Below are positions 2,165 through 6,889 of a stretch of 7,767 nt of DNA, one piece after another. The translations under genes and the position numbers were made by a program. Numbering within the stretch: the first letter of the stretch is position 1; each line of letters opens with the position of its first letter. A model generated the notes under the pieces. It was given only the letters and a program-made list of their open reading frames with translations, searched no databases and was not told the origin of the DNA. The stretch spans positions 1-7,767 of the forward strand of contig OMIW01000126.1 in assembly GCA_900299205.1 (NCBI GenBank), read 5' to 3'. The stretch is from Pseudomonadota bacterium (GTDB lineage Bacteria; Bdellovibrionota_C; UBA2361; OMIW01).

Positions 2165-3976
2165 ATGTCAGACTTTTTCGAACCAAATCTCAAAGCCCTC
2201 GCGCGACGATTTCCTGAGATTGCCCGACGGCTCGCATTTCGGGACGAGGTGTCCTCAGATGTTCAGTCAAAAGTATCAAGTGAGGGGATGATAGTTGTTG
2301 TTCGAGAACAGCCTCTTGATCACCCTTCTCATCCTCGTCAAGCAGCTCAGCAATGGGCTATCAGGGCGTGTGGCTCGCTTCAATCTCGTGGTGATCCTGT
2401 TATCGTTTTTGGTCTCGGGGGAGGTTATCACCTCGAGGCATTGGTCGGTGAGGGAGTAACTGATCTCGCTGTTTACGAACCAAGTTGGGATGTGCTTCGC
2501 GTTGCGATGGAATCGCGGGATCTGAGCCAGCTATTCGATAAATTGAGGGCAATTTGGATCGATGAAATACCGACTGACCTGTCTGGCGATAGACAGCTGA
2601 TGACCCGCTCTTTATCCCAAACGGTATTTCCTGAAGCATGGGACGAGTTGCGACGAGGACTCTTTGCGGCGCGAGGTTCCGAAAAGTTGAAGCCGTCGGT
2701 CTCTATTCTAGGACCACTGCAGGGCGGAACCCTCCCTATTCTGTCGTATGTTCAATCTGCTCTTGTACGATTGGGCATCCGCGCTCGGCCTCTCAATATG
2801 AGTCCGTGGGCGGCGGGTTATCATCAGGTAGGTAGCCTCATAGGGGATAAGTTTCGACAACAGGTGGCCGAGCGGAATTACGTCGATTTCCTCTCGAGTG
2901 TTGCGGTCGAGAGTGTCACTCACCGACCGGTGGATATTTTCATTTGTCTCGCGCAGGCACCGATAACGATTAAGGCGCTCCAGCAGCTCCGCTCCATGGG
3001 AATTATTACCGTGTTGTGGTTTGTTGAGGATTTCCGTCGATTCTCCTATTGGCAGCAGTTTGCCCCGTACTTTGATTTCGTATTCACGATTCAGAAGGAG
3101 CCATGTATCTCCGCAATGAGGCAAGCGGGTGCTCCGCAGGTCCACTATCTCCCTGTTGCATGCGATCCGCTTGTTCACGCCCCGATGTCGTTGACACCAG
3201 AGGAGCACCGGCGGTGGGGAAGTCCAGTGTCATTCGTAGGGGCAGGGTATCACAATAGGCAACAGGTATTCGCCTCACTCTCGCACCTGCCTTTCAAGAT
3301 ATGGGGAACTGAGTGGCCCGTCAGCAGGCCATTTAATACCTTGGTGCAGGAAGAGGGTCGTCGCTTGGCACCAGAGGAGTACACTAAGATTTTTAATGCG
3401 ACCGACATTAACATTAATCTTCATTCATCCTCCGAGCGGGATGGTGTGGATCCCTTCGGAGACTTCGTCAATCCGCGAACATTCGAATTGGCCGCGGCAG
3501 GAGCCTTTCAGCTTGTCGATCAACGTACACTCCTTCCCGAACTCTTTGTGCCAGGAGAAGAGCTCGTTACGTTTAATTCAGTTCCAGAGCTTAAAGATCA
3601 GGTCGCAATGTATCTGAGCGAGCCAGAGAAAAGACTTCAATCAGTCAGAAAAGGGCGGGAGCGAGCGCTCAACGACCATACCTATGATACCCGGATGAAA
3701 CAGATGTTGTCGGTGATTTACAGTACTAAGTATGATCATCTTGCGGAGAGGCAGAAAAATCATCCATGGACTAAACTCCTCACGGCAAGCAAACCGTTCC
3801 CAGAGCTCATGAAGCGACTGGAAAGAGGATACGGCCGTGGTGACGATCCGTCGCTTGACTCCCTTATCGCCGAAATAAGCGTTGGAAAGGGCAAGCTCGA
3901 TGATCTCGATCAGGAACTTCTTTTTCTTCACCATGTGAAGCAGAACATGGTCCTAAAAAAGCCAGGCGAGGGGTGA
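2165..3976 (+). CDS. CgeB-like glycosyltransferase with Maf-like N-terminus
   Basis: This 603-residue cytoplasmic protein has no signal peptide or membrane segment. The C-terminal two-thirds reads as a CgeB/DUF3880-type GT-B glycosyltransferase: VLWFVEDFRRF (283-293), a Rossmann-like SFVGAGYHNRQ segment (356-366), KIWGTEW shortly after, INLH..S then VNPRTFELAAAGAFQLVDQR (435-454), and LVTFNS with a D/Y-rich end near 510. The nucleotide-sugar donor cannot be read from the sequence. The N-terminus (FFEPNLKALARRFPEIARRL, about 4-23; GLGGGYH 83-89; VYEPS near 100) resembles the N-terminal part of Maf/MptE-like flagellin-modification proteins; that link is my inference. Residues 525-603 form a charged helical tail. 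An in-frame TGA lies at 2156-2158, so ATG 2165 is the first possible start, although its ribosome site is weak (GAG 5 nt upstream). It is the first gene of a three-gene operon, 3 nt before the GT9 gene. Confidence 0.85.
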   Translation: MSDFFEPNLKALARRFPEIARRLAFRDEVSSDVQSKVSSEGMIVVVREQPLDHPSHPRQAAQQWAIRACGSLQSRGDPVIVFGLGGGYHLEALVGEGVTDLAVYEPSWDVLRVAMESRDLSQLFDKLRAIWIDEIPTDLSGDRQLMTRSLSQTVFPEAWDELRRGLFAARGSEKLKPSVSILGPLQGGTLPILSYVQSALVRLGIRARPLNMSPWAAGYHQVGSLIGDKFRQQVAERNYVDFLSSVAVESVTHRPVDIFICLAQAPITIKALQQLRSMGIITVLWFVEDFRRFSYWQQFAPYFDFVFTIQKEPCISAMRQAGAPQVHYLPVACDPLVHAPMSLTPEEHRRWGSPVSFVGAGYHNRQQVFASLSHLPFKIWGTEWPVSRPFNTLVQEEGRRLAPEEYTKIFNATDININLHSSSERDGVDPFGDFVNPRTFELAAAGAFQLVDQRTLLPELFVPGEELVTFNSVPELKDQVAMYLSEPEKRLQSVRKGRERALNDHTYDTRMKQMLSVIYSTKYDHLAERQKNHPWTKLLTASKPFPELMKRLERGYGRGDDPSLDSLIAEISVGKGKLDDLDQELLFLHHVKQNMVLKKPGEG

Positions 3977-3979
3977 CAG

Positions 3980-5665
3980 ATGAAGCGTCGCTATCCCGAA
4001 AAACATAATGTGCTCCTCGTCAATATCACCAGATTGGGCGATATGCTTCAGGCAACGCCGACCATATCGGGAATAAAGCGAGAAAACCCCCATTGCAGGA
4101 TCTCAGTCGTCGTTGAAAAACAGTTTGCCGAGGTCTGTCAATGGATACCGGATATTGATGAAGTAATCTCTCTTGATCTGACCTATGTAGTAAAGTGCCT
4201 CCATCGAGACGGCGAGGGGGTTCTCGAGGCGTATCGCTATTTTCACGATTTTATCGAGGATCTGAGAGCCAGAAAATTCGATTTTTCGCTTAATATGGCG
4301 TCATCCTCGTATACGGCTTTGATACTATCGTTGGTGGGTACTCCCCGGATGGGGGGGTGGACGGCCGATGAGGAGGGATGTCGACGAATTGAGTCCGATT
4401 GGGCGCGGCTGTTCGCAAGCTCGGTCTTCCATCAAAATAGACATTTTACCTCCCTTAACCTTGTGGATGTCTTTCGGCTTAGTGCCGATGTCATCGATCA
4501 CCCCCTCAACCTCATGCTCCAGGTGTCCGAGGAGGCAAAACGCAGAGCACAAGAGTTAATTGAAGAGTGTGGCTTCACTAGTAAAGGACCACTCATCGCG
4601 ATTCAGGCGGGAGCGAGTCAGGCCAAAAGGCAGTGGCGAACGGAGCATTTTGTCTCACTGATAAAAAAACTGGTGGCAGATACCGGCGCCCGAGTTATCC
4701 TTACCGGGACCAAGAGTGAGCTTTCGATAATCGACCCCATCGTGTCAGCACTCGACGGCTGCTTCGGGGATGGGAGAGTCGAGGTTGGAGTGGTGGCGGG
4801 AAAGACATCTATTCCTGAGCTTGCAGGAGTGCTCCAGGCGAGTGATATCTTGATAACGGGTGATACCGGCCCGATGCACATCGCCGTGGCAGTTGGAACG
4901 CCGGTGGTCGCGATGTTCGTCGCGTCAGCTCTGGGGTATGAAACGGGGCCATACGGTGAGGGAAGTGTTGTGGTCCAAGCTACGATAGGATGTGGTCCGT
5001 GTCACCCCGGCAAGCCGTGTAGTACGATTGAGTGTCACGATCTCATCTCTCCCAACCTCATCGCGGAGTTGGCTCAGCTTCGGTTGCGTGGTCCGCTCTC
5101 CGAAATTCCTCGAGAGTTGAGTAATCCGACGGCATATCGGGTATTCGGTACGGGATTTGACAGGCACGGAGTTTGGAAGTTGGAACCCCTTGATCCTTTT
5201 GACCGAGATCCTGCATCTCCTTATCGAGAGGCATATCGTCGTCTCTGGCTGGAGGATCTCGGAGGGTTTGTGGCTGGGTGCACCGCAAAGAAGGGCGGTA
5301 TGCTCCAGAAACGGTTTGGGGAGAGAGGTGATCCGGTCGCCGGTCTGGCGGAGCTTGAAGAGCTCGGAGTAAGGGGAATCGACCTTCTTGATCGGCTCCT
5401 CGAGGCAGAGGGGGATCTGCAAGTTTCACCCGAAAAGCTGAGAGAGATTGCAGATTCGATGGACAGGACGGATCGGGAGATTGAGCAGCTGGGGTATCAC
5501 TATGCGTACCTCGGCTTACTCGTGAGAATGTTTGTTTTTGCGAAGGAAAATCTTCAAGGTTATGACGTCAAGGATCTATCGAGTCAGATGAGGGGGGTGT
5601 ACGAGGACCTCAGGAGGCGCAGCGGGCTTTTGGGGCGGTATATTCACGAAGAGTTAAAGGGATAA
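3980..5665 (+). CDS. GT9 heptosyltransferase-like protein with long C-terminal extension
   Basis: Residues 1-370 form a glycosyltransferase family 9 (ADP-heptose:LPS heptosyltransferase type) GT-B fold. It opens with VLLVNITRLGDMLQATP, where Asp21 of the RLGD motif sits at the position of the family's catalytic base. The donor-side motif GDTGPMHIAVAVGTPVVAMF (about 294-313) follows, with Asp295 and His300 as expected. Four cysteines (338, 341, 347, 352, pattern CxxCx5Cx4C) follow the donor domain, as in many GT9 proteins. Typical GT9 enzymes end near residue 350-370. This one continues for about 190 residues (371-561) of mostly helical, charged sequence that I do not recognise. The protein is soluble. 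GAGGGG overlapping the end of the upstream gene gives a strong ribosome site 6 nt before the ATG. The operon context suggests transfer to a protein or glycan acceptor together with the upstream enzyme; LPS core synthesis is the alternative. Confidence 0.88.
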   Translation: MKRRYPEKHNVLLVNITRLGDMLQATPTISGIKRENPHCRISVVVEKQFAEVCQWIPDIDEVISLDLTYVVKCLHRDGEGVLEAYRYFHDFIEDLRARKFDFSLNMASSSYTALILSLVGTPRMGGWTADEEGCRRIESDWARLFASSVFHQNRHFTSLNLVDVFRLSADVIDHPLNLMLQVSEEAKRRAQELIEECGFTSKGPLIAIQAGASQAKRQWRTEHFVSLIKKLVADTGARVILTGTKSELSIIDPIVSALDGCFGDGRVEVGVVAGKTSIPELAGVLQASDILITGDTGPMHIAVAVGTPVVAMFVASALGYETGPYGEGSVVVQATIGCGPCHPGKPCSTIECHDLISPNLIAELAQLRLRGPLSEIPRELSNPTAYRVFGTGFDRHGVWKLEPLDPFDRDPASPYREAYRRLWLEDLGGFVAGCTAKKGGMLQKRFGERGDPVAGLAELEELGVRGIDLLDRLLEAEGDLQVSPEKLREIADSMDRTDREIEQLGYHYAYLGLLVRMFVFAKENLQGYDVKDLSSQMRGVYEDLRRRSGLLGRYIHEELKG

Positions 5666-5669
5666 GACG

Positions 5670-6278
5670 ATGGTATCAGTTCGGATTGACGGTGAGCAGA
5701 GCACTATCTCAGGGGAGCATCTTCCCCGGCTTATCGACCTCATCGAGGTGATCAAGGACCATATCGTTCCTGGTCACATGATCACAGCTTTGCATATCGA
5801 TGGCCGAACCATTTCAGACGAGGATTGGGAAATTTCTCCGCGTTACCTCGCTGGCACTACCCTCGAGGTGACCACGGGCACACCCGCTCAATACCTAAAA
5901 GAAAAGGTTTCGGCTGCTCCTGAAGTTATCGACCACTGTTATTTCATGTTCCGTTCGACCCGGAAAGCTTTTATTGATGGGGATAGTCAGTCAGCAAACC
6001 ACCTGTTGCAAGAAGCCGTCGACAATTTACAAGCCTTCGTTAGCTGGTATCGGACGATGCTTGAACTGATGCCAGAAGATCAGCGGCTCAGATTTGGGAT
6101 CGACCCCGAAATAACCGAAATGGGGGAAACTCTCGAGCGCATATGCATGCAGCAGCTTACACAGTCGTGGAAGTTAACGGGGGATACTATCAGTAAAGCA
6201 CTCGAGCCTCAGCTCGACAACTTGCACTCACGCATGAGGGTCATCATAGCTAACGAGCCAGGTTACAAGAAAGTTTAG
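5670..6278 (+). CDS. uncharacterised protein, beta-grasp-like head and helical tail
   Basis: I do not recognise a named family in this 202-residue soluble protein. Residues 1-70 read like a small beta-grasp (ubiquitin/ThiS-like) unit. It begins VSVRIDGE, has a helix LPRLIDLIEVIKDHI, then ITALHIDGRTI and a closing TTLEVTTG strand. It lacks the terminal Gly-Gly of a conjugated ThiS protein. Residues 75-195 are almost entirely helical and contain an aromatic-rich segment (CYFMFRSTRKAF, 90-101) and WYRTMLELMPEDQR. This could be a helical bundle like an export chaperone such as FliS/FliT, though I see no sequence proof. The start is well supported: AAAGGGA ends 7 nt before the ATG and the GT9 stop is 4 nt upstream. 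Being last in the operon, it is probably an adaptor, chaperone or regulator for the two transferases (inference). No T-rich terminator follows it directly. Confidence 0.75.
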   Translation: MVSVRIDGEQSTISGEHLPRLIDLIEVIKDHIVPGHMITALHIDGRTISDEDWEISPRYLAGTTLEVTTGTPAQYLKEKVSAAPEVIDHCYFMFRSTRKAFIDGDSQSANHLLQEAVDNLQAFVSWYRTMLELMPEDQRLRFGIDPEITEMGETLERICMQQLTQSWKLTGDTISKALEPQLDNLHSRMRVIIANEPGYKKV

Positions 6279-6526
6279 TGGAAGGCGTCGAGCCTTGCGC
6301 GACCTCAAGAGAACCATTAGCTGAACCTCTCGATTGCTGTCCTCCGTCTCGCGGGGGCGTTCACCCCATGGGGGAGTTGTGCACTGAGGAGTCTTCGGCG
6401 AAAATTGAGTAAAATAGAAAGAGGGGATTACCCACTGGTCGAGATTCTCCAGATGGATTGAGCGCAGGTAGGCTCTTTCCTTTAAAGGGGGCGGAGACCG
6501 GAATTATCACCAAAGAGGAGATGCCT
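6279..6526. other. intergenic gap before the HPF-like gene
   Basis: No gene is supported here. A small hairpin (AAGGC 6283-6287 with GCCTT 6293-6297) follows the 202-residue gene but has no T-run, so it is a poor terminator. Two perfect 10-bp palindromes occur, CCCCATGGGG (6364-6373) and CCTTTAAAGG (6479-6488). A CTGG/CCAG hairpin lies near 6436-6453. I could not place a clear sigma-70 or sigma-54 promoter. The AGAGGAG ribosome site of the next gene closes the gap at 6514-6520. Confidence 0.4.
6514..6520 (+). promoter_or_regulatory. ribosome binding site fixing the HPF-like start
   Basis: AGAGGAG ends directly against an ATG at 6521, too close to use, but stands 6 nt before the ATG at 6527. 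It therefore favours 6527 over the longer in-frame starts at 6458 and 6521. Confidence 0.75.
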
Positions 6527-6889
6527 ATGCGTTGCGAAATAAAGCTGGACAAAAACCTAGCATCGGACTCCGTGCGAGAGTACTTTGCAAGGCAATTAGG
6601 GGAGCTTTCGCCTCGTTTTGACTCTATAGTTCGACGTTTGATTGTTACGGGACGTGATATTAACGGTCCGCGGGGTGGAAATGATAAGGAGTGTGCGATT
6701 TTTGCATACCTCGCGAATGGTAAGCCAATTCGCATCGCCGCACGGGCTTCGGATTTATACCAAGCGGTCGATATCGTTGTTGAAAAAGCAAAAGTTCGGA
6801 TTGCGAGCCACAAGGTTCATGCGATAGCACGGCGAAGAGGAGTCGGTAGTTCCAGGGGATTCTCTCAGTCGCCGGTCCTTTCAGAGTAA
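6527..6889 (+). CDS. HPF/RaiA-like ribosome-associated protein (short form)
   Basis: This 120-residue protein belongs to the sigma-54 modulation/HPF-RaiA group, which binds the 30S subunit and helps store or silence ribosomes in slow growth. It shows the family layout: an N-terminal strand (MRCEIKLDKN), a helix SVREYFARQLGEL (15-27), a strand VRRLIVTGRDINGPRGGNDKEC (35-56), then IAARASDLYQAVDIVVEKAKVRI, the second helix. The D(I/V)NGPRGG.D..C motif is typical of a short HPF-like branch. There is no long C-terminal dimerisation domain, so it is the short type. The last 15 or so residues (RRRG, then SSRGFSQSP) are basic and disordered-looking. The longer frame opening at 6458 would add 23 residues unlike the family, and the ribosome site supports 6527. 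A strong intrinsic terminator lies 70 nt downstream, so it ends its transcription unit. Confidence 0.87.
   Translation: MRCEIKLDKNLASDSVREYFARQLGELSPRFDSIVRRLIVTGRDINGPRGGNDKECAIFAYLANGKPIRIAARASDLYQAVDIVVEKAKVRIASHKVHAIARRRGVGSSRGFSQSPVLSE

Follow-up and report, generated by a model that had tools for sequence, protein, structure and literature searches.

In the cytoplasm of Aeromonas caviae, flagellin is bound and glycosylated by Maf1, which passes it to the FliS homologue FlaJ (PMC4065374). The flagellin O-glycosyltransferase of Caulobacter, FlmG, binds flagellin through its TPR part (PMC7591256), and the flagellin glycosylation islands of Enterobacteriaceae encode GT41-methyltransferase fusions (PMC4875605). 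The BAHT autotransporter heptosyltransferases, such as TibC, also act on proteins and carry a four-cysteine metal-binding cluster, C339/342/358/370 (PMC4358343).

Here, we analyzed a window of 7,767 nucleotides, which is an entire contig (G000:C126) of a 2.45 Mb genome assembled in 206 contigs and 90% complete. Its genes A, B and C were compared with each of these systems. The likeness to Maf/FlaJ is a cytoplasmic glycosyltransferase tied to FliS (PMC4065374), with a partial Maf N-terminal-like stretch in A; however, the catalytic part of A is a CgeB/GT4-like GT-B enzyme, and the locus has in addition a second transferase, of family GT9, and protein C. Shared with FlmG (PMC7591256) is a soluble, modular GT-B enzyme whose flagellin-binding part would be separate; moreover, a TPR-glycosyltransferase is encoded next to C in several relatives, with an orthologue in the genome of the window, but A has no TPR domain and its binding of flagellin is putative. 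The enterobacterial islands share the occurrence of glycosyltransferase-methyltransferase fusion proteins within flagellin loci (PMC4875605), so this kind of system is already known; the GT family is a different one, though, and here the methyltransferase lies N-terminal to the CgeB-type enzyme and appears to have been lost in the species of the window. The GT9 enzyme B has a four-cysteine cluster like that of TibC (PMC4358343), but with the spacing CX2CX5CX4C and with flagellar partner genes. Finally, FliS, an operon neighbour, is a helical bundle about as large as the C-terminal part of C, but no sequence relationship between the two was found, C has an extra beta-grasp domain, and it coexists with FliS in most genomes. 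Literature searches returned no description of this operon.

Organization of the three-gene operon

Gene A (2165..3976, + strand) encodes a 603-aa GT-B glycosyltransferase of the CgeB type (Glyco_trans_1_2 and DUF3880), as assigned from the ORF list, Pfam and an AlphaFold2 model; gene B (3980..5665, + strand), a 561-aa GT9-family glycosyltransferase with a C-terminal extension (PF01075, alignment A3); and gene C (5670..6278, + strand), an uncharacterized 202-aa protein, also modelled with AlphaFold2, from a family that is associated with the flagellum across the phylum. The initial annotation had placed two glycosyltransferases and a 202-residue protein only 3 and 4 nt apart. All three ORFs were present, and the gaps were confirmed as CAG (3977-3979) between A and B and GACG (5666-5669) between B and C. 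For the strong internal ribosome sites that it proposed, purine-rich candidates could be read before B and C: GAGGGG (3968..3973, + strand) within the 3' end of A, and AAAGGGA (5656..5662, + strand) within the 3' end of B; in contrast, reading of the sequence before A gave no obvious site. Since the gaps are this short and the ribosome-binding sites of B and C lie inside the preceding gene, the natural reading is that A, B and C would be on a single transcript. The proposal of one transcription unit thus agrees with the spacing and the internal sites, but the sigma-70 promoter and terminator scans stayed at chance level, and no promoter for A-B-C was identified. Sigma-54-like sites in the window were also at chance level, and sigma-28-like sites numbered 12 versus 5.6 in shuffles, all with three mismatches and none just upstream of A. 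The Rfam search of the window gave no match.

The gene order in the window is a DUF808 gene and a YheT-like hydrolase on the - strand, followed on the + strand by A, B, C, an HPF-like gene and rpmG, for ribosomal protein L33. The likely start of the hydrolase is the Met at 1979, leaving about 185 bp before A. The HPF/S30AE-like protein (6524-6889) has 121 aa, is a weak match and is devoid of the long C-terminal domain. No flagellar gene adjoins A-B-C in the window, where the neighbours are the hydrolase upstream and the HPF-like gene and rpmG downstream, and this was counted against a role in flagellin modification.

The two glycosyltransferases and protein C

The Pfam matches of A were Glyco_trans_1_2 (7.8e-36) and DUF3880 (1.2e-11). 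In its AlphaFold2 model (pLDDT 90), residues ~172-526 (2678..3742, + strand) form the predicted GT-B catalytic part and matched GT4-type GT-B enzymes, with BshA (3mbo_C) at Z 26.6, rmsd 2.9 and 316 aligned residues; the comparison with PglA from Campylobacter gave Z 22.8. A Maf-like N-terminus had been suggested for this enzyme, and residues 77-128 (2393..2548, + strand) did match PF20157, Maf_flag10_N, with an E value of 3.8e-11 and 43.3 bits versus a cut-off of 23.5, although this likeness is restricted to a 52-residue fragment, profile positions 113-165 of 228. The matches listed for the model included no Maf structure, in a comparison that hardly covered the N-terminal 170 residues, and the central Maf catalytic domain (DUF115/MAF_flag10) was absent, by Pfam, from A and 17 aligned relatives. 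In place of the Maf domain, A has Glyco_trans_1_2 and a GT4-like GT-B fold as its catalytic part, and this was likewise counted against a role in flagellin modification. In relatives, A has about 930 aa and an N-terminal SAM methyltransferase (loci L010, L012, L014, L016-L019, L021, L023, L024 and L026), a domain missing from A of the window and of L020. Both of these fall within the methyltransferase-bearing clade of the tree (support 96/93), and thus the simplest reading is that the domain was lost, possibly in one event or in two. A search of the same genome, run without a positive control, found no such domain elsewhere.

The match of B to PF01075, Glyco_transf_9 (E 4.5e-29, 101.9 bits versus a gathering cut-off of 22), places it in family GT9. 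Its four cysteines, C338, C341, C347 and C352 (4991..5035, + strand), occupy nearly invariant columns of alignment A3, and the C-terminal extension, residues 365-561 (5072..5662, + strand, same alignment), has no Pfam match.

For C, no Pfam or NCBIfam model was above its cut-off, and the Pfam and PDB sequence searches returned just scattered matches or designed helical bundles, with no family. The AlphaFold2 model, of high confidence (pLDDT 90.6), has two parts, a beta-grasp-like domain and, after it, a four-helix bundle. The first, ubiquitin-like, comprises residues 1-70 (5670..5879, + strand) and was assigned from the secondary structure of the model and weak SUMO/ubiquitin Foldseek matches; the predicted bundle spans residues 72-195 (5883..6254, + strand) and was also seen by structure comparison. 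The comparison with FliS (6gow_E) gave Z 10.7, rmsd 3.6 and 107 aligned residues, on par with unrelated helical bundles. There was no PF02561 match, and the hhalign probability was 0.2% with shallow profiles; hence, C as a FliS homologue was unsupported by sequence.

The third protein had been taken for an orphan, but C was found in 40 of the 45 available genomes of the phylum and is conserved throughout it. In three genomes it stands apart from A-B, beside a TPR/glycosyltransferase or a TPR protein and sigma-54 activators. In two of these (G002 and G028), the genes after C encode a TPR protein, which in G002 carries a glycosyltransferase domain, as well as sigma-54 activators and a histidine kinase; the layout in G030 is alike by length, with one sigma-54 activator confirmed. 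At L171:5671-15086 and L173:6856-12887, unlinked C precedes genes for a TPR protein, a pair of sigma-54 activators and a histidine kinase, which may form a flagellar regulatory cluster. The TPR-glycosyltransferase also lies downstream of the A-B-C operon in several other relatives. In the genome of the window, a 1008-aa TPR-glycosyltransferase is followed by a second CgeB-type glycosyltransferase on contig C201 (L185:6331-10745), and this pair is orthologous to the one that follows the operon in relatives. From these neighbourhoods, C keeps company with glycosyltransferase or TPR genes and not with one particular enzyme.

Linkage and co-occurrence with flagellar genes

Scanning of species genomes returned 59 loci, which were compared gene by gene. 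The same A-B-C order was found in the phylum of the window, whose members appear in NCBI titles as Deltaproteobacteria, Bdellovibrionales, Oligoflexia and others; some Nitrospinota and a single Thermodesulfobacteriota genome had A-B with a diverged C. Because the order recurs across relatives, the arrangement is not due to chance. FliS (PF02561) was directly upstream of A in 11 searched loci, preceded by one or two FliD genes in five loci and by FlaG in two. Among the 36 FliS-bearing genomes of the phylum, at least 24 have FliS linked to A or C: in 17 it is 5-7 kb from C (within 8 kb), and in seven more (G019, G020, G025, G027, G032, G036 and G041), where the operon is split by the assembly or the FliS-C distance could not be measured, it is directly upstream of A. 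In addition, fliS, fliD and flagellin adjoin A-B-C in the Thermodesulfobacteriota locus L030, and flagellins adjoin B-A in G030. The gene-neighbourhood check, set beforehand, therefore returned a conserved A-B-C order with FliS upstream of A, often behind fliD, and the two glycosyltransferases are genomically tied to flagellar filament genes. Two further features were observed around the operon. A PD-(D/E)XK/Cas4-like gene lies right after C on the opposite, - strand at L021:7746-8657 and in L023, L024 and L026, and a giant CgeB-like protein of 1100-1400 aa is encoded upstream of A-B in the Nitrospinota loci L029, L031-L035 and L044.

Among 43 relatives, C was present in 38 of the 39 genomes with flagellin and in none of the four without (Fisher p = 4e-5, kinship not corrected for); these four belong to three families, and so the number of independent events is smaller. 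Full-length B was absent from the same four. The exception, G011, has flagellin but no C, and its B is cut by the contig end where C would be expected; from matching coordinates, G011 is probably the genome of L020. The genome of the window encodes three flagellins, two FlgL-like proteins and FlhA, and therefore its species should be flagellated. A second FlhA-like (FHIPEP) gene at G000:C55:2177-3919 possibly belongs to another export system. FliS (PF02561) was found neither in the genome of the window nor in G011, and FliD was not found in the former; at a completeness of 88-90%, these absences are suggestive only and may be explained by incompleteness.

Proposed function and alternative readings

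The gene structure, the enzyme folds (that of A as predicted), the conserved order, the fliS/fliD linkage and the co-occurrence with flagellin were established here, and the flagellar link of the operon is well supported. We regard it as probable that A-B-C is a cytoplasmic flagellin(-O)-glycosylation operon in which C serves as a flagellin-handling adaptor. With flagellin as the likely acceptor, A and B would act in turn, in either order, one attaching the initial sugar at Ser/Thr residues and the other extending the glycan. A would perhaps grip the acceptor via its Maf-like N-terminal region and, by analogy with Maf1/FlaJ and FlmG, both enzymes would modify flagellin ahead of its uptake by FliS. 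For C, our proposal is that its most likely binding partner is flagellin, alone or in complex with the transferases; it would keep flagellin accessible for modification and then pass it to the export chaperone, which is FliS in genomes that have it. The methyltransferase fused to A in relatives would probably cap or methylate the glycan or flagellin; in the lineage of the window, this domain and also the neighbouring fliS were probably lost. A more tentative extension, to which we give rather little weight, is that C may be a new type of flagellin-handling factor that couples flagellin glycosylation to export, with a chaperone role in lineages apparently without FliS, such as that of the window.

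Alternatively, A-B-C could be an LPS core or capsule operon with B as the LPS-core heptosyltransferase, in keeping with its GT9 family and its weak similarity to heptosyltransferases I-III. However, B scored below every NCBIfam LPS equivalog cut-off (102.8/185.3, 87.9/134.6 and 105.7/170.2 bits, score/cut-off, for the models of LPS heptosyltransferases I-III), separate GT9 paralogues are kept in genomes, the flagellin-negative ones included, where the B-type enzyme is missing, and the operon is linked to FliS/FliD. On the scores and the flagellar linkage, the LPS core reading was rejected as highly improbable, in agreement with the initial annotation, which had favoured protein glycosylation over LPS core synthesis. 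It is also improbable, to a lesser degree, that the operon glycosylates other flagellar parts, such as FliD or a hook protein, or several surface proteins, with flagellin not being the main acceptor. This would fit the FliD genes, often two, that adjoin the operon in some lineages, and the flagellin genes, usually found on contigs other than that of the operon; yet, the operon is linked most tightly to FliS, the flagellin chaperone, which in known systems binds flagellin specifically, and flagellin is adjacent in L030 and G030.

A separate question is whether C lies outside the enzyme system and shares the transcript by coincidence, being either a flagellar regulator or a FliT/FlgN-like export chaperone; this we find possible, if on the unlikely side. 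C is predicted to be a small helical bundle, as are several export chaperones, and in G002 and G028 its neighbours include sigma-54 activators and a histidine kinase. Nevertheless, the gene after B is C almost throughout the phylum, as well as in some Nitrospinota, and where C is unlinked it is still beside a TPR/glycosyltransferase or TPR protein.

The presentation of flagellin to glycosyltransferases and its subsequent transfer to the export gate are known in few model species. Through this operon, a single gene order found across the phylum connects FliS with two transferases, a methyltransferase that is optional and a conserved, uncharacterized protein. Protein C is the most interesting part of the system, and the division of labour can be tested through the apparent natural losses of the methyltransferase domain and of FliS.
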